From positions 806,001 to 870,000 of the forward strand of contig JABTUA010000003.1 of NCBI GenBank assembly GCA_015075635.1: a DNA stretch of 64,000 nt, in the 5' to 3' direction. Numbering within the stretch: the stretch's first letter is position 1; each line of letters starts with the position of its first letter. The notes under the pieces are model-generated. The model was given only the letters and a program-made list of their open reading frames with translations, did not search any database and was not told the DNA's origin. This DNA is from Polyangiaceae bacterium. GTDB taxonomy: Bacteria > Myxococcota_A > Polyangia > Polyangiales > Polyangiaceae. Made by a program: the position numbers and the translations under genes. Positions 6,161-21,512 of this stretch are shown here, one piece after another.

Positions 6161-7903
6161 ATGGTGGCTCTCCTCGCGCGCGCTTCGTTCGGGCTCCTGG
6201 CGATCTGCCTGACGGCGGGCTGCGGCGGAGACGATTCGGGTGGGTCGGGTCAGCCGCTGCCGGACGCGGGCCTGGAGGACTCGTCCGCCTCCGACGCGGG
6301 TGACGCCGGCGAGGACTCGACGCCTCCGGACGGCGACCTGCCCGACGACGGCTCGACGCCGCTCGACGCGCCGCCCGACGCAAGCAGCCCCTGCACAAAG
6401 TCTCCGGCGGAGTGCGCGCTCGACGACGAGCAGGCCGCGTCGGACCAGATGGACTCCGTGGCGGGCGACGAGGTCGCGCTCCGCCAGTTCTTGACGGCGG
6501 TGCCGAAGGGAGGAGACCTGCACAACCACCTGTCCGGTGCGGTCTATGCCGAGACGTACCTCGACTGGGCCAAGACGGAGGGCGGGTACTGCATCAACAA
6601 GAGCACCCTCGCGCTCTCGACCTCGTGCAGCAACACCTCGACCACCTCGCCCGTTCCGACGCCTGCCGACGCCTTGTTCCTGCCCGTGGTCCGCGCCTGG
6701 TCGATGCTGGACTTCGTCCCGGGCGCCGAGACGGGCCACGACCACTTCTTCGCGACCTTCGGCAAGTTCGGCGCCATCTCCGGACCCGCGCACCACGCCA
6801 AGGGTCTGGCGGACGTGATGAAGCGCGCCGACAGCGAGAACGTGCTGTACATCGAGCCGATGCTGTTCTCGAACTCGAACGCCAGCAGCTGGGGGTCGAG
6901 CGTCTGGACCGGCGGCACGCTGACCACCGCGGATCTGCCGGCTTTCCACGCGGCGCTCCTGGCTTCGAGCGGCTACGGCGCCGCCGTGCAGGCCATCCTC
7001 ACCGACATCCAGAGCTCGGAGTCTGGCGCGCTGAACCTGCTCGGCTGCAAGGGCGCGAACCCCCAGAGCGCTTGCCGCGTGGGCGCGCGCTACATGGTCT
7101 ACATCTCGCGCAGCGGCGGCGGTCCCAGCGTCTTCGCGCAGATGGTCGCGGCGTTCGAGGCGGCGAAGACGGAGCCGCGCTTGGTCGCGTTGAACCTGGT
7201 CGGCCCCGAGGACGGCTCCACCGCCCTCAGCTCCTACGACCGCTCGATGGCCATGCTGGGTTACCTGCACGACGCGTACGCCGGAAAGAGCCCGCTGCAC
7301 GTCACCCTGCACGCCGGCGAGCTCACCGAGAAGTACCTGCCCTCCGGCTACGCCATCTCCCAGATCGATCACATCCGCAAGGCCGTGCAGGTGGCGCGCG
7401 CGGAGCGGATTGGACACGGACTGGACGTGCTCGGGGAATCGAACCCCACTGCGCTGCTCGCCGAGCTGAAGCAACTTGGCGTGATGATCGAGATCGGGCT
7501 CAGCAGCAACGTGCAGATCCTCGAGGTCAGCGGCCCGGCCCACCCGCTGGCGACCTACCTGAAGAGCGGCGTGCCCGTCGCCCTCGCGACCGACGACCAG
7601 GGCGTGTCGCGCTCCAGCATGGCGGGGGAGTACCTGCGCGCCGTCCAGGACCAGAAGCTCGACTACAAGACGCTGAAGTCGATGGCGCGCACGAGCCTGG
7701 AGAAGTCGTTCCTCCCCGGCGCGAGCTTATGGACGTCGATGGACACGCTCCAGGCGGTGCCTGCCTGCGCGCCCACGCCGACCAGCTACTTCGGCGACGA
7801 CCCCGCGCCGGCCACCTGTCAGACCCACCTCGGCGGAAGCGCCAAGGCGACCGCGCAGTGGGAGCTCGAGCGGCGCTTTCGCGAGTTCGAGTCCAAGCAG
7901 TAG
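6161..7903 (+). CDS. Secreted adenosine/AMP deaminase-like lipoprotein
   Basis: 580-residue predicted lipoprotein: signal ending in T-A-G-C, then an Asp/Pro/Ser-rich low-complexity linker (residues 25-80) typical of myxobacterial surface proteins, then an amidohydrolase of the adenosine deaminase superfamily. Zinc and catalytic motifs are all visible: H-N-H (H121, H123), H-A-G-E (H384), R-I-G-H-G (H419), and T-D-D (D478, D479). It would convert adenosine or a related aminopurine nucleoside to the inosine form outside the cell, as in eukaryotic ADGF/ADA2 proteins. Several extra Cys residues after the catalytic core suggest disulphides. Neighbour across a short divergent gap is the GMC oxidoreductase. 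Confidence 0.85.
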   Translation: MVALLARASFGLLAICLTAGCGGDDSGGSGQPLPDAGLEDSSASDAGDAGEDSTPPDGDLPDDGSTPLDAPPDASSPCTKSPAECALDDEQAASDQMDSVAGDEVALRQFLTAVPKGGDLHNHLSGAVYAETYLDWAKTEGGYCINKSTLALSTSCSNTSTTSPVPTPADALFLPVVRAWSMLDFVPGAETGHDHFFATFGKFGAISGPAHHAKGLADVMKRADSENVLYIEPMLFSNSNASSWGSSVWTGGTLTTADLPAFHAALLASSGYGAAVQAILTDIQSSESGALNLLGCKGANPQSACRVGARYMVYISRSGGGPSVFAQMVAAFEAAKTEPRLVALNLVGPEDGSTALSSYDRSMAMLGYLHDAYAGKSPLHVTLHAGELTEKYLPSGYAISQIDHIRKAVQVARAERIGHGLDVLGESNPTALLAELKQLGVMIEIGLSSNVQILEVSGPAHPLATYLKSGVPVALATDDQGVSRSSMAGEYLRAVQDQKLDYKTLKSMARTSLEKSFLPGASLWTSMDTLQAVPACAPTPTSYFGDDPAPATCQTHLGGSAKATAQWELERRFREFESKQ

Positions 7904-7923
7904 GGGCTCTGTTTCGCCTCTAC
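7900..7923. terminator. Hairpin spanning the two convergent stop codons
   Basis: GTAGGGGC (7900-7907) pairs with GCCTCTAC (7916-7923), one G-T pair, 8-base loop. Both stop codons (TAG at 7901 on +, TAG at 7922 on -) sit in the stem. There is no long T-tract, so it may be an RNA-end stabiliser or a weak bidirectional terminator. Confidence 0.4.
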
Positions 7924-9173
7924 GTACCAGGTCCCAGCCGCCAGGCGAGCACGCGTGTCTGCACCGCCTCGCGGAACATGCAGGTGACCTGACCGTCCTC
8001 CGACGCCACGAAGACCACGCTGCCAGGATGCTCGGCGGCGTAGGTCGCCCCGGCGCGGTGACGCACCCCTCGACTGCCCAGATCGACGGGCTGAGCCGTC
8101 ACGCCTTCACTGTCGAGCGCCTCGTCGACCGTGGCGGTGTGACCCACGGGCAAGATCACTCCGAACGCGACCAGCGCCAGCGCGCGATTGAGCAGGGTCG
8201 CGCCGTCGATCCCAGTCAGCGCCCCCAGCTCTTCGACGACGCGCTCCGCCTCCGTGAGGAAGGCGTTGCGAAGCAGCTCGCCAAAGGCGCGGGCGTCACT
8301 GCTCTGCGGAGGCTCGGACGACCTGCGCGAGCCAACCTCGGGCCAGAACGGGCGCGACGGCGGGGCGGAGTCCCGCCTCCGCTCGATGTGCCGCGCCAGC
8401 CGCAGCAATGCGGCCAACGACGAGTCGCCCACCATCCTGTAGGTGGCCGACTCGGCCGCTGACGGCTGCTCTTCCGGAGCGATGATCAGGATGCCTCCCC
8501 GACCGTGTGCTGCCATCTCACGTACGAGCGAGCGAATGGCGTCGAGATAGTCCGCGACGCCCGGCTCTTCCAGTCCGGCAGCCCGAGCATTCTCCTCCAG
8601 GGCGAGCCTGACTGGACCGGCGGAGAACAAGACGTCCTCGCCGCCGGTGAGGATCGCGCCGCGCTCGTAGCCGAGCAAGAGGTCGCGGCCGTTGCGTATG
8701 GACAGGCAGCCGGGCCGGGCCGCGACGATCTTCAGGAATGGATCCCGATCCACGTTGAGGCCTTCGCGGGCAAGGCCGGTGATGGCGAGGTGCGCCTCGT
8801 CGAGCACGTGGACCGCGGAGTAGATCCGGCGATCGAGCCCGGCGACCGCAAGCTTCGCGAACTCCGGGATGCTGAAGGGCCGAGGTGCGTCGAAACGATG
8901 GACCTTCCACTGGTAGAGAGACGCGGCTCCCGACTCGGCACCCTCGGGCAGCACGACGTCGCCCTCGCTCCGACCGAGCAAGACTACGCCCACCGGGTTG
9001 CGCTCGCCCTCGTGGGTCTCGAGACCGGCGAAGAAGACGGTCGTGAGCAGGTGGACGAGCAAGTCGTCGTCCACCTCCCCCAAACAGCAGCTCCTGGATA
9101 CCGCCCGATGCCGCAACACTGGCACCAGCGCTGGCGGGAACACGTGTGCACCGAGCTCGCCAGTCGTGGGCAT
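7920..9173 (-). CDS. Diadenylate-cyclase-like (DisA_N/DAC fold) signalling protein
   Basis: 417 residues, no signal or membrane segment. The C-terminal ~100 residues match the DAC (DisA_N) domain: D-G-A at 323-325, a hydrophobic strand ending I-L-P, G-V-R-H-R-A (RHR at 371-373) and V-F-V-A-S-E-D-G at about 387-394. In true diadenylate cyclases D-G-A and G-T-R-H-R bind ATP and catalyse c-di-AMP formation; here both are kept apart from Thr to Val in front of RHR and SEE to SED. The N-terminal ~300 residues are not recognised and may be a sensor. It starts four bases after the stop of the response regulator gene, so the two form an operon. It may be an active c-di-AMP synthase or a DAC-derived nucleotide sensor (a DACNV-like family is possible); the sequence cannot decide. 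Confidence 0.65.
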   Translation of the reverse strand: MPTTGELGAHVFPPALVPVLRHRAVSRSCCLGEVDDDLLVHLLTTVFFAGLETHEGERNPVGVVLLGRSEGDVVLPEGAESGAASLYQWKVHRFDAPRPFSIPEFAKLAVAGLDRRIYSAVHVLDEAHLAITGLAREGLNVDRDPFLKIVAARPGCLSIRNGRDLLLGYERGAILTGGEDVLFSAGPVRLALEENARAAGLEEPGVADYLDAIRSLVREMAAHGRGGILIIAPEEQPSAAESATYRMVGDSSLAALLRLARHIERRRDSAPPSRPFWPEVGSRRSSEPPQSSDARAFGELLRNAFLTEAERVVEELGALTGIDGATLLNRALALVAFGVILPVGHTATVDEALDSEGVTAQPVDLGSRGVRHRAGATYAAEHPGSVVFVASEDGQVTCMFREAVQTRVLAWRLGPGT

Positions 9174-9177
9174 GGGA

Positions 9178-9669
9178 CTAACCCGAGTGGGGCGAGCTCG
9201 GCTCGTCCGATGATCCGAGGAGCGTCGCGGCCACGGACTCGAGGTCGCTCAGATCGAAGGGCTTGCGCAGCAGGACGGCCCTGCGCCCGAGCGCTCGGAC
9301 CTGCGCCGGGATGCGCTCATCTCGGAGCGCGGTCATCACGATGACCGCGGCGCCTACGCCGGCGGTGCGCGCCGTGGCCATCGCCTGAAGACCGCTCATC
9401 CACGGCATCGCGATGTCCGTGACGACGAGCGCGAAGGGACCCTCGTCGGCCAGCTTCTCGATGAGCTCGGCGCCGCTCCCGGCGCTCACCACGTCCGCCC
9501 CCAAGTCGGCGAGCGCCTCGGCCACGGCGTCGAGCAGCTCGGGGTCGTCGTCTGCCACCAGGATCCGCGCGTAAGCACGGCCCGTGCCGGGCGCGAGCTC
9601 GTGTGCCCGTCCCGGAAATATCGACTGCGCCCCATGCAGGGTGTTCGCGGCGTGAGGGCGACCGCGCAC
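9178..9669 (-). CDS. Single-domain response regulator
   Basis: About 163 residues from GTG at 9669; most of the length is one receiver domain. Key residues are present: acidic pocket in I-L-V-A-D-D-D, phosphoacceptor Asp in V-T-D-I-A-M-P (about residue 85), Thr in V-M-T-A, and Lys in L-R-K-P-F. There is no DNA-binding or enzymatic output domain, so it must act by protein contact. It is the first gene of an operon with the diadenylate-cyclase-like gene (gap TCCC) and is divergent from a histidine kinase that lacks a receiver, so the three may form one pathway. The start is uncertain: no ATG fits the frame and about 40 residues precede the domain. Confidence 0.75.
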   Translation of the reverse strand: MRGRPHAANTLHGAQSIFPGRAHELAPGTGRAYARILVADDDPELLDAVAEALADLGADVVSAGSGAELIEKLADEGPFALVVTDIAMPWMSGLQAMATARTAGVGAAVIVMTALRDERIPAQVRALGRRAVLLRKPFDLSDLESVAATLLGSSDEPSSPHSG

Positions 9670-9785
9670 TCCCTGCGCGGGTCGAGAGGTCGTCGAGTCT
9701 CGGATCCCCCATGCAGAAGTCCCGGATCGGGCCTGCGGGGTGATGCCTGGCACACGATCACGCGGCGCGCAGGAGTTGCGCGAAG
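9670..9785. promoter_or_regulatory. Divergent intergenic region of the receiver/DAC operon and the histidine kinase
   Basis: 116 bases separate the two divergent start codons. It must hold both promoters unless they lie inside coding sequence. I see AGGAG at 9771-9775, ten bases before the kinase GTG, but no convincing -35/-10 pair and no clear operator palindrome. Confidence 0.3.
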
Positions 9786-12650
9786 GTGCCGCTGGCGAGC
9801 GGCATGCCTCTTGTACCCATCGCCGGCATGAAGCTCCGGCTCCGGGCCAAGCAGCTCTGGCGCGGGTTTGCGCCGGCTGTTGGGCTGCTGGCGGTCGTGC
9901 TCGGCGGCGGCGTGCTCGTCGGCTGGTGGGGCGACCTCGCCGCGCTGCGCGCCCCCGTTCCGGGCGCTCCAGCGATGAAGCCCAACACGGCGCTGATGTT
10001 CGTGCTGTGCGGGCTCGCGCTCTTCTCGCGTGGTCGCGCGGAGCCCAGCGTGCGCCACGAGCGAGCGGGCATCGCCCCTGCTCTGATCGCGCTCGCGATT
10101 GCGGCTGCGACACTGTTCGAGCACGCGGCGGGCGTCGAGCTGGGTATCGACGGCCTGGTCGCGGGCGCTTCGTCCGGAGCGCCCTCGCCCAGCACCGCTT
10201 CGGCCTTTCTGCTCCTGAGCGTCGCGCTGCTCCTGCCTAGAGCCCCGGACCGCCGTCGCGCCATGCTGGTCGAGGCACTCGCGCTAATTGCGGCGACGAA
10301 CGCCATGCTCGCGCTGCTCGGCTTCTCGCTGGGGGTGGTGTTCTTCGACGCGGAGGTTCGCTTGCCCGTCGCCATCGGTATGGCGCCGCACAGCGCTGCC
10401 GGGCTCCTGCTGCTCGCGGCGGGTGTGCTCGTCGCCCGGCGCGACGCGGTGCTGACGAGCCTCCTGACCAGCAGGGGCTCCGGCGGCGAAGTGGCTCGGC
10501 GCCTGCTGCTCGTCGCGCTCGTGACCATTCCGGTCACGACGGTCGCGGCCTTTGCGCTGGAGCGGCGCGGCTGGTGGCCGACACCGGGCGCGGCGGTCGT
10601 GGCCGCGACGACGAGCGCCATGGTGCTGGTCCTGGCCCTTCGGATCACCGGCCGCCGCCTCGACGCCGTGGAGTCCCAGCGCACGCGCCTGGCCGCAGAT
10701 CTCCAGCGCGCCATGGCGGAGAGCGCGCGGCTCGCGGCGCTGGTCACGTCCGCCGACGACGCCATCATCGCCGAGAGCCCCGAGGGCGTCGTGCTCGACT
10801 GGAACCAAGGCGCCGAGCGCCTGTACGGCTGGAGCGCGGCCGAGATGCTGGGCCGTTCGATCGACGCGATCATCCCCGAGGAAGACCGTGCGGTGCGGCG
10901 CGACCTCCGCGAGCGCGCCGCCGCGGGCGTCGTCATGCGCGGCCTCGAGTGCGTGATCGTCAACAAGAACGGCGGGCGCATCCCGGTCTCGCTGACGCTG
11001 TCCCCGATCGGCGACGAGGCCGGCAGCGTGAGCTCCATTTCGCGCGATCTGACCGAGGTGAAGGCGGCGCAGGCCGTACTGGCCAAATCCGGCGAGCTCT
11101 TCGCCGAGGTCGCCCGCGCCAACTTGCTGGTGACCGAAGCCACTGCCGCGATGCCCGAGACCGGTCTGCCGCGCGTGCTTGAGGTGATCGCCGAGCAGGC
11201 CCGCAAGCTCACGGGAGCCGAGCTCGCGGGGGTCGGCCTGGGCGCGCGGGCTCCCTTCCAGCACTGGGTCCGGGTCGGAGCGGCTGCGGAGCAAGGCAGT
11301 GACGAGCATCCGCTGCTCGCCGCCTCTGCCGAGCTGGGCGAGATCGTACGCGTGGCGAACGTGCGCGAGGATCCGCGCTTTCGCGACGGAGTCCCGGAGC
11401 ACTCGCAGATCGAGAGCCTGATGGGCATCCCGGTCAGATACCGCGGGGAAATCACCGGACACCTGTGCTTGGCCAACAAGCACGGTGGTGGGGGCTTCAG
11501 CGCTCAGGACCAGAGCGCCGTGGAGCTGATCGCGGCCCACGTCGGCGCCGCCATCGAGGCTTCGCGGCTCTACGAGCGCGAGGCGATCCAGCGCGCCCGT
11601 CTGGAGTCGATCGTCGCGCAGCTGCCGGTGGGCGTAGTCGTCATCGATGCACAGGCCCAACTGGTGCTGCAGAACCAGGCATCACTCGAGCTGGCGAAGA
11701 GCATTCGACCCATGGTGCACGACGTGCGCTTGCCGTCCGGCGAGGCGCTGCCAGCCGAAGACCATCCGGTGATCCGCGCGCTACGGACCGGCGAGCGCAT
11801 CGCGTCTCAGGAGCTCAAGCTCGAGCTCGGCTCGGGGGAGCAGGTGCCCATCCTCGCCAGCGCCGCCCCAGTGCGCAGCGGTGACGAGATCGTCGGAGCC
11901 GTCACCGCCTTCCGCGACATTCGGGCCATCAAGGAGCTCGAGCGCATGCGGGAAGAGTGGGCCTCGGTCATCGCCCACGACATGCGGCAGCCGGTGAACA
12001 GCATCTGGCTCAACAGCGATCTCCTGAAGGGGGCGCCTCTGTCCCAGCGCGAGCAGAACCAAGTGGCCCGCATCCGTCGCGCCGCGGAGCGGCTCAATCG
12101 CATGGTCGAAGACCTCCTCGACATCTCTCAGGTCGAGTCGCGTCATCTCGCGCTCTGCCGGGAGCCGCTCCGGCTCGGCTCGGCGCTCGCCGAGGCGCTG
12201 GCGGGCGTGCCGGACATCGGCGCACGCTGTCAGCTGGAGCTCGACGACGCCGAGCTGCTGGTGCTGGCCGACTCGGTGCGGTTCCAACAAATCCTCGAGA
12301 ACCTGCTGTCCAACGCCGAGAAGTACGGGGAGCCCGGCACACCGGTGGTCGTGCGCAGCCGGCGCGAGCAGAGTCAGGTCGTGATCAGCGTCGAGAATCG
12401 CGGGCCGGGCATCTTGCCCGACGAGCTCCGCACGCTGTTCGAGCGCTTCTCACGCGCCCGCTCGGCGCACGCCGGCCCGGCGCGGGGCCTGGGACTTGGC
12501 CTCTACATCTGTCGCGGCCTCGTCGAGGCCCACGGCGGCCGCATCTGGGTGGAGAGCGTGCCCGGCGGCACCACCACGTTCCACTTCACGCTGCCCATCG
12601 CGCTGGAGGCCGAGCTGGCCCAGACCATGGCGCACGCTCGGGCCAGCTGA
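9786..12650 (+). CDS. Membrane sensor histidine kinase with PAS, GAF and PAS domains
   Basis: 954 residues from GTG at 9786, chosen for the AGGAG ten bases upstream; ATG at 9804 or 9828 would trim 6 or 14 residues. Residues 30-290 contain about eight hydrophobic segments. A PAS domain (about 316-430) is followed by a GAF domain (about 450-600), a second PAS (about 610-720), a HisKA domain with phospho-His in I-A-H-D-M-R-Q-P (H731), and an HATPase_c domain with N-L-L-S-N-A-E-K-Y and G-L-G-L-G-L-Y. It would autophosphorylate in response to membrane, small-molecule or redox signals and pass phosphate to a separate receiver. It carries no receiver itself, and the divergent single-domain receiver at 9178-9669 is the obvious candidate partner. 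Confidence 0.88.
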   Translation: MPLASGMPLVPIAGMKLRLRAKQLWRGFAPAVGLLAVVLGGGVLVGWWGDLAALRAPVPGAPAMKPNTALMFVLCGLALFSRGRAEPSVRHERAGIAPALIALAIAAATLFEHAAGVELGIDGLVAGASSGAPSPSTASAFLLLSVALLLPRAPDRRRAMLVEALALIAATNAMLALLGFSLGVVFFDAEVRLPVAIGMAPHSAAGLLLLAAGVLVARRDAVLTSLLTSRGSGGEVARRLLLVALVTIPVTTVAAFALERRGWWPTPGAAVVAATTSAMVLVLALRITGRRLDAVESQRTRLAADLQRAMAESARLAALVTSADDAIIAESPEGVVLDWNQGAERLYGWSAAEMLGRSIDAIIPEEDRAVRRDLRERAAAGVVMRGLECVIVNKNGGRIPVSLTLSPIGDEAGSVSSISRDLTEVKAAQAVLAKSGELFAEVARANLLVTEATAAMPETGLPRVLEVIAEQARKLTGAELAGVGLGARAPFQHWVRVGAAAEQGSDEHPLLAASAELGEIVRVANVREDPRFRDGVPEHSQIESLMGIPVRYRGEITGHLCLANKHGGGGFSAQDQSAVELIAAHVGAAIEASRLYEREAIQRARLESIVAQLPVGVVVIDAQAQLVLQNQASLELAKSIRPMVHDVRLPSGEALPAEDHPVIRALRTGERIASQELKLELGSGEQVPILASAAPVRSGDEIVGAVTAFRDIRAIKELERMREEWASVIAHDMRQPVNSIWLNSDLLKGAPLSQREQNQVARIRRAAERLNRMVEDLLDISQVESRHLALCREPLRLGSALAEALAGVPDIGARCQLELDDAELLVLADSVRFQQILENLLSNAEKYGEPGTPVVVRSRREQSQVVISVENRGPGILPDELRTLFERFSRARSAHAGPARGLGLGLYICRGLVEAHGGRIWVESVPGGTTTFHFTLPIALEAELAQTMAHARAS

Positions 12651-12665: not shown

Positions 12666-13523
12666 TCAGGCCTTGGGTCCGAAGGCCGTGACCACGAAGC
12701 CGCCGCCCTTCTCGTCGACGTGCATCTCCAAGAGGCCGCGGCGCTGCGCGTCCTCGAGCAGATCGTTGAACGTCCGGTAGCCGTGGAAGCGCTCCGAGAA
12801 GCTGGGTCGCTTGCGCTTGAGCACCTGCTTGACCATCGAGCCGTGCACCGAGCCATCCCGATCGGAAAACAGCGCCTCCACGGTCTCGAGCACGAGCTCG
12901 AGCGCCTCGGTCTGGCGCTGATCGACGCTCTTCTCGCTCTTGTCCGGGTCGCCTGCCGCGGCCGGCGTCGAGACGCGCGCCGGAGGTGGCGGTGGGGGCT
13001 TGGGCTGGGGGCGCTTCTCCTTCTCGCGCCGCTGCTCGCGCTTCGCGCGCACCAGGTCGTCGTAGTAGATGAACTCGTCGCAGTTCTCGATCAAGAGGTC
13101 GCTCGAGCTGTTCTTCACGCCGAGCCCGATCACTCGCTTGTTGTTCTCGCGCAGCTTCGAGACCAACGGCGAGAAGTCGCTGTCCCCCGACACGATCACG
13201 AACACGTCGACGTGCGACTTCGTGTAGCACAGGTCGAGTGCGTCCACGACGAGCCGGATGTCGGCGGAGTTCTTCCCCGAGTACGAGACGTGGGGGATCT
13301 CGATGAGCTCGAACGAGGCCTCGTGCAGCATGCGCTTGGAAGACTTGTAGCGGTCCCAGTCCGCGTAGGCGCGCTTGACCACGACCTTGCCTTTGTCCAG
13401 CAGGCGCTCGAGCACGAAGTTGACGTCGAAGTCCTCGTACTTTGCGTCGCGGACTCCGATCGCTACGTTCTCGAAGTCGCAGAAGATCGCCATGTTGAGG
13501 GTGTCGTCGAGTCGTTCGGTCAC
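12666..13523 (-). CDS. NYN-domain putative RNase with C-terminal LOTUS/OST-HTH domain
   Basis: 285 residues. Residues 10-160 form a NYN (PIN-like, LabA/DUF88) nuclease fold: F-C-D-F-E-N, S-A-D-I-R-L-V-V-D and V-S-G-D-S-D-F supply the acidic metal-binding residues. A charged, Pro-rich linker (about 165-200) leads to a winged-helix LOTUS/OST-HTH domain (about 205-283, ending in F-V-V-T-A-F), an RNA-binding module. The protein is likely a cytosolic ribonuclease or RNA-binding regulator; bacterial NYN-LOTUS proteins are widespread but mostly uncharacterised. It ends convergently 15 bases after the histidine kinase and starts divergently from the lipoprotein at 13625, about 100 bases away. Confidence 0.85.
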   Translation of the reverse strand: MTERLDDTLNMAIFCDFENVAIGVRDAKYEDFDVNFVLERLLDKGKVVVKRAYADWDRYKSSKRMLHEASFELIEIPHVSYSGKNSADIRLVVDALDLCYTKSHVDVFVIVSGDSDFSPLVSKLRENNKRVIGLGVKNSSSDLLIENCDEFIYYDDLVRAKREQRREKEKRPQPKPPPPPPARVSTPAAAGDPDKSEKSVDQRQTEALELVLETVEALFSDRDGSVHGSMVKQVLKRKRPSFSERFHGYRTFNDLLEDAQRRGLLEMHVDEKGGGFVVTAFGPKA

Positions 13524-19682: not shown

Positions 19683-21008
19683 ATGACCGGGACACCGAAT
19701 CCGGAATCAGTCTCAACGAAAATCGAACGGATAGCGAAACGCGCGAGGGAGATGCGCGGCGTGGGACTGAACACGCTCGCGCATTTCATCGACATCGATT
19801 GGCTACGCGAAGCGCATCGGCGCACTCGCAAGGATGGCGCCTCGGGCGTCGATGGACGGACTGCGGAAGAATATGCGGCGAATTTGGAGGGTAACCTCCG
19901 CTCGCTGCTCGACCGCGCGAAGTCCGGCGACGCCTATCGCGCGCCCCCCGTGCGGCGTGTGCACATCCCGAAACCGGGTGGGTCGAAGACTCGCCCGATC
20001 GGCATCCCCACCTTCGAGGACAAGGTCCTTCAACGGGCGGTGATGATGGTGCTCGAAGCTGTGTACGAGCAGGACTTCTTGGACTGCTCGTTCGGGTTTC
20101 GGCCGGGGCGCGGCGCACACGACGCACTGTACATGCTGCGTGAGAGCCTGATGTCGATGGCTGGGGGCTGGGTGCTCGAAGCGGACATCGAGAGCTTTTT
20201 CGATTCCGTGGACCGCACCAAGCTCCGAGAAATCCTCGAGCGGAGGGTGCGCGATGGGGTGCTTTTGCGACTCATCGGCAAGTGGCTGAATGCTGGTGTG
20301 ATGGAGGACGGGCATGTCTACCGCCCGGACTCCGGCACGCCGCAAGGTGGAGTGATCTCGCCACTCCTGGCGAACGTCTACCTGCACGAGGTGCTCGACG
20401 AATGGTTCGAGTGTCAGGTCAAGCCACGGCTGAAAGGCCGTGCGGTTTTGATCCGATACGCGGATGACTTCGTCATCGTCTTCGAGCGGGAAGAGGACGC
20501 TCGTCGCGTTCTGGACGTACTGCCAAAGCGATTTGGCAAGTACAACCTACGCCTCCACCCAGAGAAGACCCGGCTGGTTCCGTTCCGCAGGCCGCCTCGG
20601 CGTCGAGTCCCTCGTGGACCCGACCATCGGCGGCCGGGGACCTTCAACCTGCTCGGCTTCACGCACTTCTGGTGTCGGTCACGGAAGGGCTTCTGGGTTG
20701 TACTGAGGAAAACCGAGACATCCCGCCTCAGCCGGGCGCTCAAGGGCATCTCGCTCTGGTTGCGCCAGAACCGGCACGAGCCGATTCGCAGACAGCATCG
20801 AGCGCTGGTGAAGAAGGTCAGCGGCCACTACGCGTACTACGGTGTCACCGGGAACTACTTGGCGCTGGACTCGTTCCGGTACTGGGTCCGGGTGCTGTGG
20901 TGCAAGTGGTTGTCGCGTCGTTCCAACACCAGCGGCGGAATGCAGGCGATGAACGTGCTGTTGGAAGCGTACCCGCTTCCTCGGCCGGTCATCTCGCATG
21001 CGATCTGA
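19683..21008 (+). CDS. ltrA: Group II intron reverse transcriptase/maturase
   Basis: 441 residues from ATG at 19683, with GGAGG five bases upstream. The reverse transcriptase domain includes [35 protein letters not shown], and the catalytic Y-A-D-D with downstream L-R-L-H-P-E-K-T. The C-terminal ~120 residues are the maturase (X) domain, needed for RNA splicing and target-primed reverse transcription. The protein ends there: the HNH endonuclease domain found in some group II proteins is absent, so retrohoming would depend on nicks or replication forks. The frame is intact, so the intron may still be active. Confidence 0.9.
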
Positions 21009-21035
21009 TCAAGCGCAGTGAACCCGTGGCCTGAC

Positions 21036-21101
21036 GAGCCGGATGCAGGAAATCTGCACGTCCGGATCCGTGGGAGCCCTGGAGGAGCAATCCTCCAGGG
21101 C
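21036..21101 (+). ncRNA. Group II intron domains V and VI
   Basis: Domain V is 21036-21068: it starts GAGCCGGA, has the inner stem GCAG/CTGC with a GAAAT loop, the two-base bulge region ACG, and closes with TCCGGATC. Domain VI is the perfect 11-base-pair hairpin GCCCTGGAGGA/TCCTCCAGGGC (21076-21101) with a GCAA loop. Together they form the catalytic core and branch-site helix of the intron. Confidence 0.8.
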
Positions 21102-21155
21102 CACCCGGCGCCGTGATCGGGCAAAGCCCGGCCGCGGTGCCGGACAGGGGGTCCC

Positions 21156-21512
21156 ATGTCTCGGAAGCCCACTCACTCGCGCGTCATCGAAGCTCGGGCG
21201 CGCGCCATGCGCTTCGCGCAAACGCCTACGGAAGAGACGCTGTGGCAGGCGCTCCGCGGCGGGAAGCTTGGCGTGGTCGTCCGCCGCCAGTACGTCATCG
21301 GCCAGTACATCGCGGACTTCGCCGTGCCCTCGGCGCGGCTCGCGATTGAAGTCGATGGCGCGTATCACGCCGCACGGCGGGCCGCCGACGCGCGGCGGGA
21401 CCGCGAGCTCGGGCGCCGCGGGTGGCGCGTGCTGCACCTGCCGGCGGAGCTGGTGGCCAACGATCTGGCGCAAGCAGTCGCGCTCGTGCGCGCGGCGCTC
21501 GCTTCCGCGTGA
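21156..21512 (+). CDS. DUF559 family (Vsr/PD-(D/E)XK-like) nuclease-domain protein
   Basis: 118 residues from ATG at 21156. It matches the DUF559 pattern: M-R-x-x-x-T-P-T-E-x-x-L-W-x-x-L-R near the N-terminus, R-R-Q-Y-V-I-G-Q-Y-I-A-D-F, A-I-E-V-D-G and R-D-R-E-L-x-x-x-G-W-R-V-L. The Asp in A-D-F and the E-x-D pair are the predicted metal-binding residues of a restriction-endonuclease-like fold. Family members are small, often solitary and poorly characterised. It lies immediately downstream of the group II intron and is followed by a hairpin terminator, so it may be part of the same accessory insertion. Confidence 0.8.
   Translation: MSRKPTHSRVIEARARAMRFAQTPTEETLWQALRGGKLGVVVRRQYVIGQYIADFAVPSARLAIEVDGAYHAARRAADARRDRELGRRGWRVLHLPAELVANDLAQAVALVRAALASA

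Follow-up and report, generated by a model that had tools for sequence, protein, structure and literature searches.

Synthesis of c-di-AMP is known to be controlled by partner proteins (for example CdaR and GlmM) or, for DisA, by DNA structures, and direct routes from a phosphorelay to a dinucleotide signal are common for c-di-GMP. For the five characterised types of diadenylate cyclase (DAC; CdaA, DisA, CdaS, CdaM and CdaZ, PF02457), no dedicated receiver was found described (PMC10117811). Cyclic di-AMP is tied to a two-component system in KdpD/KdpE, where it binds the kinase KdpD and thus serves as the kinase input (PMC8214093, PMC4686210); at the locus described here the direction would be reversed, with a receiver controlling a cyclase. 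Control of an enzyme by a receiver has a precedent in myxobacteria, since EpsW, a single-domain regulator of Myxococcus xanthus, stimulates the enzyme EpsZ, to judge from modelling by promoting the EpsZ dimer (PMC12802240). No receiver-controlled DAC was found in the literature searched, in agreement with the original prediction that it is not standard for a c-di-AMP-type protein to be under two-component control.

The window, a stretch of 64,000 nucleotides from the 9.5 Mb genome of a Polyangiaceae bacterium, contains three adjoining genes, all with a clear coding signal. A DACNV-DAC protein (7920-9173, 417 aa, ATG start) and a stand-alone receiver (conserved part 9178-9594) are encoded on the minus strand, and a histidine kinase (9786-12650, 954 aa) is encoded divergently on the plus strand. 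The gene calls place the three genes where they had been predicted, with receiver and DAC-like gene four bases apart (the receiver ends at 9178, next to the ATG of 7920-9173). The receiver start codon is uncertain, with candidates from GTG 9558 to GTG 9669 and a conserved part from ~9575, such that the predicted gap of 116 bases to the kinase holds with GTG 9669 as the start and may otherwise be larger. Scans for promoters and terminators found none, as expected for a GC-rich myxobacterium.

The three genes are flanked by genes for an adenosine-deaminase-like lipoprotein (6161-7903) and an NYN/OST-HTH protein (12666-13523). Both have counterparts in two congeners (76-80% identity for the lipoprotein and 88-89% for the NYN/OST-HTH protein), where they are not neighbours, indicating that the stretch with the three genes has been rearranged or inserted. 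No clean empty site could be read in these two congeners, the flanking genes lying on different contigs and in other contexts. Further along the window (19752-21512), a reverse-transcriptase-like gene followed by a DUF559-like gene was recognized by eye, and a similar DUF559-like gene adjoins the DACNV-DAC gene of congener G002 (L177:629-934).

Homologues of the DAC protein, with ~40% identity or more over most of its length, were found in five genomes besides that of the window among 183 genomes of the order Polyangiales. A scan of 85,000 species genomes returned the same five, beyond which the only matches were Bacteroidota proteins, distant and without receivers. A homologous stand-alone receiver gene is adjacent on the same strand in four of these five genomes (G066, G158, G159 and G178). 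It lies upstream of the DAC gene in the window and in G066, where the two overlap by 14 bases, and downstream in G178, G159 and G158, with 22 to 73 bases between. Genomes G158 and G159 are syntenic here, so the five pair loci, from five genomes all within one order, amount to four neighbourhoods including the window. When all genes of the six neighbourhoods were compared, only the receiver and the DAC were common to the window, G066, G178 and G158/G159, and other cross-matches were generic kinase similarities. Because the pair is kept in four settings and in two gene orders, inherited synteny alone is hard to accept as an explanation: receiver and DACNV-DAC protein have evolved as a linked pair, and their shared history suggests that the receiver may control the DAC-like protein.

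In a tree of 58 DACNV-DAC proteins, the receiver-linked members form one group, accounted for by one label change, with modest support (83/65). The nearest row outside this group is G089, whose DAC belongs to the clade of the window and has no receiver, indicating that the receiver is not always needed. The G089 genome also encodes part (101 aa) of a second DAC domain from this clade (L034:7873-8178, 59% identity), probably a gene remnant. A receiver-like fragment beside a truncated DACNV protein in G048 (L173) was considered as a sixth pair and set aside, as it is a partial frame of another kind.

We hypothesize that the receiver and the DACNV-DAC protein form one output device, in which the receiver, once phosphorylated by a kinase, would bind its partner and switch dinucleotide synthesis, a reading that we judge about as likely as not.

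The original prediction was broader, and took the kinase 9786-12650 to be the cognate kinase of the receiver, with the three genes forming one pathway, to be judged by whether they are conserved together in relatives. The domain scan and the hydrophobic segments agree with its description of the kinase: about six hydrophobic segments are followed by PAS, GAF, a second PAS stretch, HisKA and HATPase_c, with no receiver domain, and H731 is correctly placed as the candidate phospho-acceptor. Conservation was found for the receiver and the DAC (five genomes, two gene orders) but not for the kinase. A search of 58 relatives detected no kinase homologue at E <= 1e-150. With the threshold relaxed to E <= 1e-60, the pair-bearing genomes had a single full-length match, a homologue with 34% identity on a different contig of G066, and none was found in G158, G159 or G178. 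None of the other four pair genomes has an orthologous kinase next to the pair. Directly downstream of the G066 pair is another kinase, which is RegB-like and has its own regulator, and in the three remaining genomes no kinase is adjacent. The kinase was therefore rejected as a conserved third member, and the three-gene module is not a conserved unit: its receiver-DAC half is supported, and the kinase is linked to it by position only.

That this kinase nevertheless serves the receiver in the window is possible but doubtful. It is encoded divergently at a distance of some 116 bases or more, and has no receiver of its own. At the thresholds used (E <= 1e-60 for the kinase), neither a DAC or receiver of these types nor a kinase homologue was found in the two congeners, and since the flanking genes lie elsewhere there, a recent joint gain of the three genes is possible. 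Against this kinase as the cognate one stand the different kinase beside the G066 pair and the lack of a homologue in the three other pair genomes. The proposed output device could receive its phosphate from the divergent neighbour or from another kinase.

The C-terminal half of the 417-aa protein is predicted to fold as a diadenylate cyclase and retains most catalytic residues. Both Pfam domains of the protein scored just under their cut-offs in the single-protein scan. The DAC profile (PF02457), matched at residues 304-401 (7971-8264, minus strand), gave 25.5 bits against a cut-off of 27; in the genome search it gave 25.9 bits, or 28.5 with neighbours in frame, and close relatives exceeded the cut-off with 28.0 and 27.9 bits. 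In an AlphaFold model built with 44 relatives (pLDDT 86.7), residues 176-417 matched solved diadenylate cyclases with Z 10.5-12.4, compared to Z 3.3 for the best non-DAC row. The published DAC motifs are GALI, DGAhh, GxRHRxA and (V/I)SEE (PMC7288161). The second and third are represented by DGATL (323-327, with DGA at 323-325) and GVRHRAG (369-375, with RHR at 371-373), in which the T of GTRHR is V and the last position is G, this being A in most relatives. The (V/I)SEE motif is replaced by ASED, hence the label DAC-like; the S-x-D pattern, with S391 and D393, occurs in 58/58 relatives, and the change of the second E to D keeps the acid. Among the same 58 relatives, D323 is invariant and the G and A that follow it are each found in 57, while RH is found in all 58 and the third R in 51, being Q in G178. 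Given the fold, the retained DGA and RHR, and SED for SEE, diadenylate-cyclase activity is plausible for this protein from sequence and model.

Compared to CdaA, DisA, CdaS, CdaM and CdaZ, the protein shares the DAC fold with DGA and RHR, and differs in carrying DACNV where those enzymes have transmembrane or DNA-binding domains, in S-x-D for SEE, and in an extra segment of ~90 residues (about 232-322). This segment separates the first DAC strand from DGA and contains two helices, one of 29 residues. Its size, the S-x-D pattern throughout the relatives and the altered RHR in 7/58 of them would also fit a nucleotide sensor, in which the DAC domain synthesises nothing, binds ATP or c-di-AMP, and either acts on the receiver or is merely scaffolded by it. 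A separate canonical CdaA-type cyclase gene elsewhere in the genome, which appears to lie between folP-like and ybbR-like genes, points the same way; canonical DAC genes are present in 56/57 genomes of the phylum. However, the near invariance of DGA and RH in a very divergent family may be more than mere binding needs, and the acid is retained at the E to D position, so we regard a pure sensor as rather unlikely.

The N-terminal DACNV domain (~residues 30-175; 8649-9086, minus strand) possibly has a degenerate DAC fold. Its Pfam profile (PF21751) matches ahead of the DAC domain at residues 36-135, with 24.5 bits against a cut-off of 27 in the single-protein scan and 27.1 bits, over the cut-off, in the genome search, and is clear in close relatives. 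The domain was also modelled alone (pLDDT 86.7). Foldseek alone gave no significant match to this model; when the 991 best-ranked chains were realigned to it, 70 PDB chains reached Z >= 2, and all of them are diadenylate cyclases. The matches to diadenylate cyclase chains have Z 6.4-8.5 over 109-134 residues, and as values under 8 can reflect a common arrangement according to the tool's own warning, it is the exclusiveness of the DAC matches that is striking. By hhalign, DACNV was not significantly similar to canonical DACs (P 0.12) or to the protein's own DAC half (P 0.24); its weak alignment with the former has the same register at the C-terminal end. DACNV may thus be a degenerate DAC domain, and given the hhalign result we treat this as a lead. 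DACNV-type domains were reportedly described by Burroughs et al. in 2015; no paper naming DACNV or PF21751 was found in the literature searched.

The receiver matches Response_reg (PF00072, 60.8 bits) and no other domain, consistent with its predicted lack of an output domain. Residues D16, D17, D60, T88 and K111, numbered in a 138-aa stretch, are invariant in the five DAC-linked receivers and provide the acid pocket, the phospho-acceptor Asp, the Thr and the Lys. With the window receiver as the query in nine genomes, DAC-linked receivers scored 103-147 bits and all others <=66, and no match at 1e-12 was obtained in the pair-less genomes among the nine (G001, G002, G022 and G089). A profile built from the five sequences scored 203-212 bits with these members, which are its training set, compared to <=105 for all others in the 183 genomes. 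By these scores, the receiver subfamily is found within the 183 Polyangiales genomes only beside this DAC clade. This exclusiveness, together with the two gene orders in four neighbourhoods, makes it very unlikely that the coupling is transcriptional or accidental, with unrelated genes travelling together by chance, even though the pair is known from five genomes only and the G089 DAC does without a receiver. We consider it highly improbable that the pair serves anti-phage nucleotide signalling. In favour are a weak NCBIfam DS2_3_antiphage match to the DAC region (16.6 bits against a cut-off of 630) and the Mrr restriction gene adjoining a different DACNV-DAC gene in congener G002. Against it, PADLOC matched neither the DAC protein nor the receiver, no effector gene was conserved with the pair, and phage and plasmid records gave no match; this last result also led us to reject a mobile element.

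For the receiver and the DACNV-DAC protein as one output device, the following steps are proposed. A histidine kinase would phosphorylate the receiver at D60, and the phospho-receiver would bind the DACNV-DAC protein directly. Since known DAC domains are active only as two copies placed face to face (PMC7288161), receiver binding could promote or block the DAC-DAC meeting and so start or stop production of c-di-AMP or a related dinucleotide. With its likeness to a degenerate DAC, the DACNV domain would be the likely built-in regulatory half. A more specific form, which we put forward only tentatively, is a phosphorylation-gated cyclase in which the receiver and the inactive N-terminal DAC copy would jointly decide whether two active DAC domains meet. 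Because the genome also has a CdaA-type cyclase, the DACNV-DAC protein would be a second, signal-dependent source of the dinucleotide.

We infer gating of the cyclase through direct binding of the phospho-receiver by analogy with EpsW-EpsZ. There too, in a myxobacterium, a single-domain response regulator is thought to contact an enzyme and to favour its active dimer. The enzyme in that case is a phosphoglycosyl transferase and the kinase input comes from the Dif chemosensory system; moreover, the EpsW-EpsZ interaction has been tested, and that of the receiver with the DAC protein is predicted from genetic linkage.

Other DACNV-DAC proteins (PF21751 and PF02457) have the same two-domain architecture, and DACNV was found in 50 of the 183 genomes, with 70 occurrences. 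Unlike the present clade, the other clades are not paired with a stand-alone receiver, although some lie beside CheB or histidine kinases. Two-component or chemotaxis genes make up 12/67 same-strand neighbours of DACNV-DAC genes compared to 18/451 background genes (p 1e-4, a value that ignores relatedness and includes the clade studied here). These signalling neighbours, namely receivers, CheB, RsbRD_N-GAF kinases and one hybrid kinase, fall in several groups of the tree. DACNV-DAC genes immediately follow CheB within a chemosensory cluster (L047:8133-10311, L168:2453-3559), and others are downstream of an RsbRD_N-GAF-HisKA-HATPase kinase gene (L050:7105-10112, L144:4059-7066, L146); another clade is convergent with CheB (L035, L036, L069, L070). 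The divergent DACNV-DAC gene of congener G002, which has GMRHQ, begins 9 bases after the Mrr-type restriction gene (L177:925-3009).

DisA has a role at DNA damage. In five Polyangiales genomes, a Ku gene is found directly upstream of a DACNV-DAC gene on the same strand (L035:9620-10570, minus strand, Pfam Ku score 177 bits; L036, L069, L070 and L171), and in Olivibacter a Ku gene (L081:6959-7804, minus strand, 174 bits) is convergent with the adjoining DACNV-DAC gene. Considering this adjacency and the role of DisA, a possible connection of DAC proteins with end joining deserves attention.

If the proposed control is correct, a DAC-dedicated receiver would link a phosphorelay directly to a dinucleotide signal. 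The DACNV-DAC proteins of myxobacteria, which are widespread and little studied, would thereby gain a function, and the DAC-like appearance of DACNV would explain why this domain keeps company with DAC domains.
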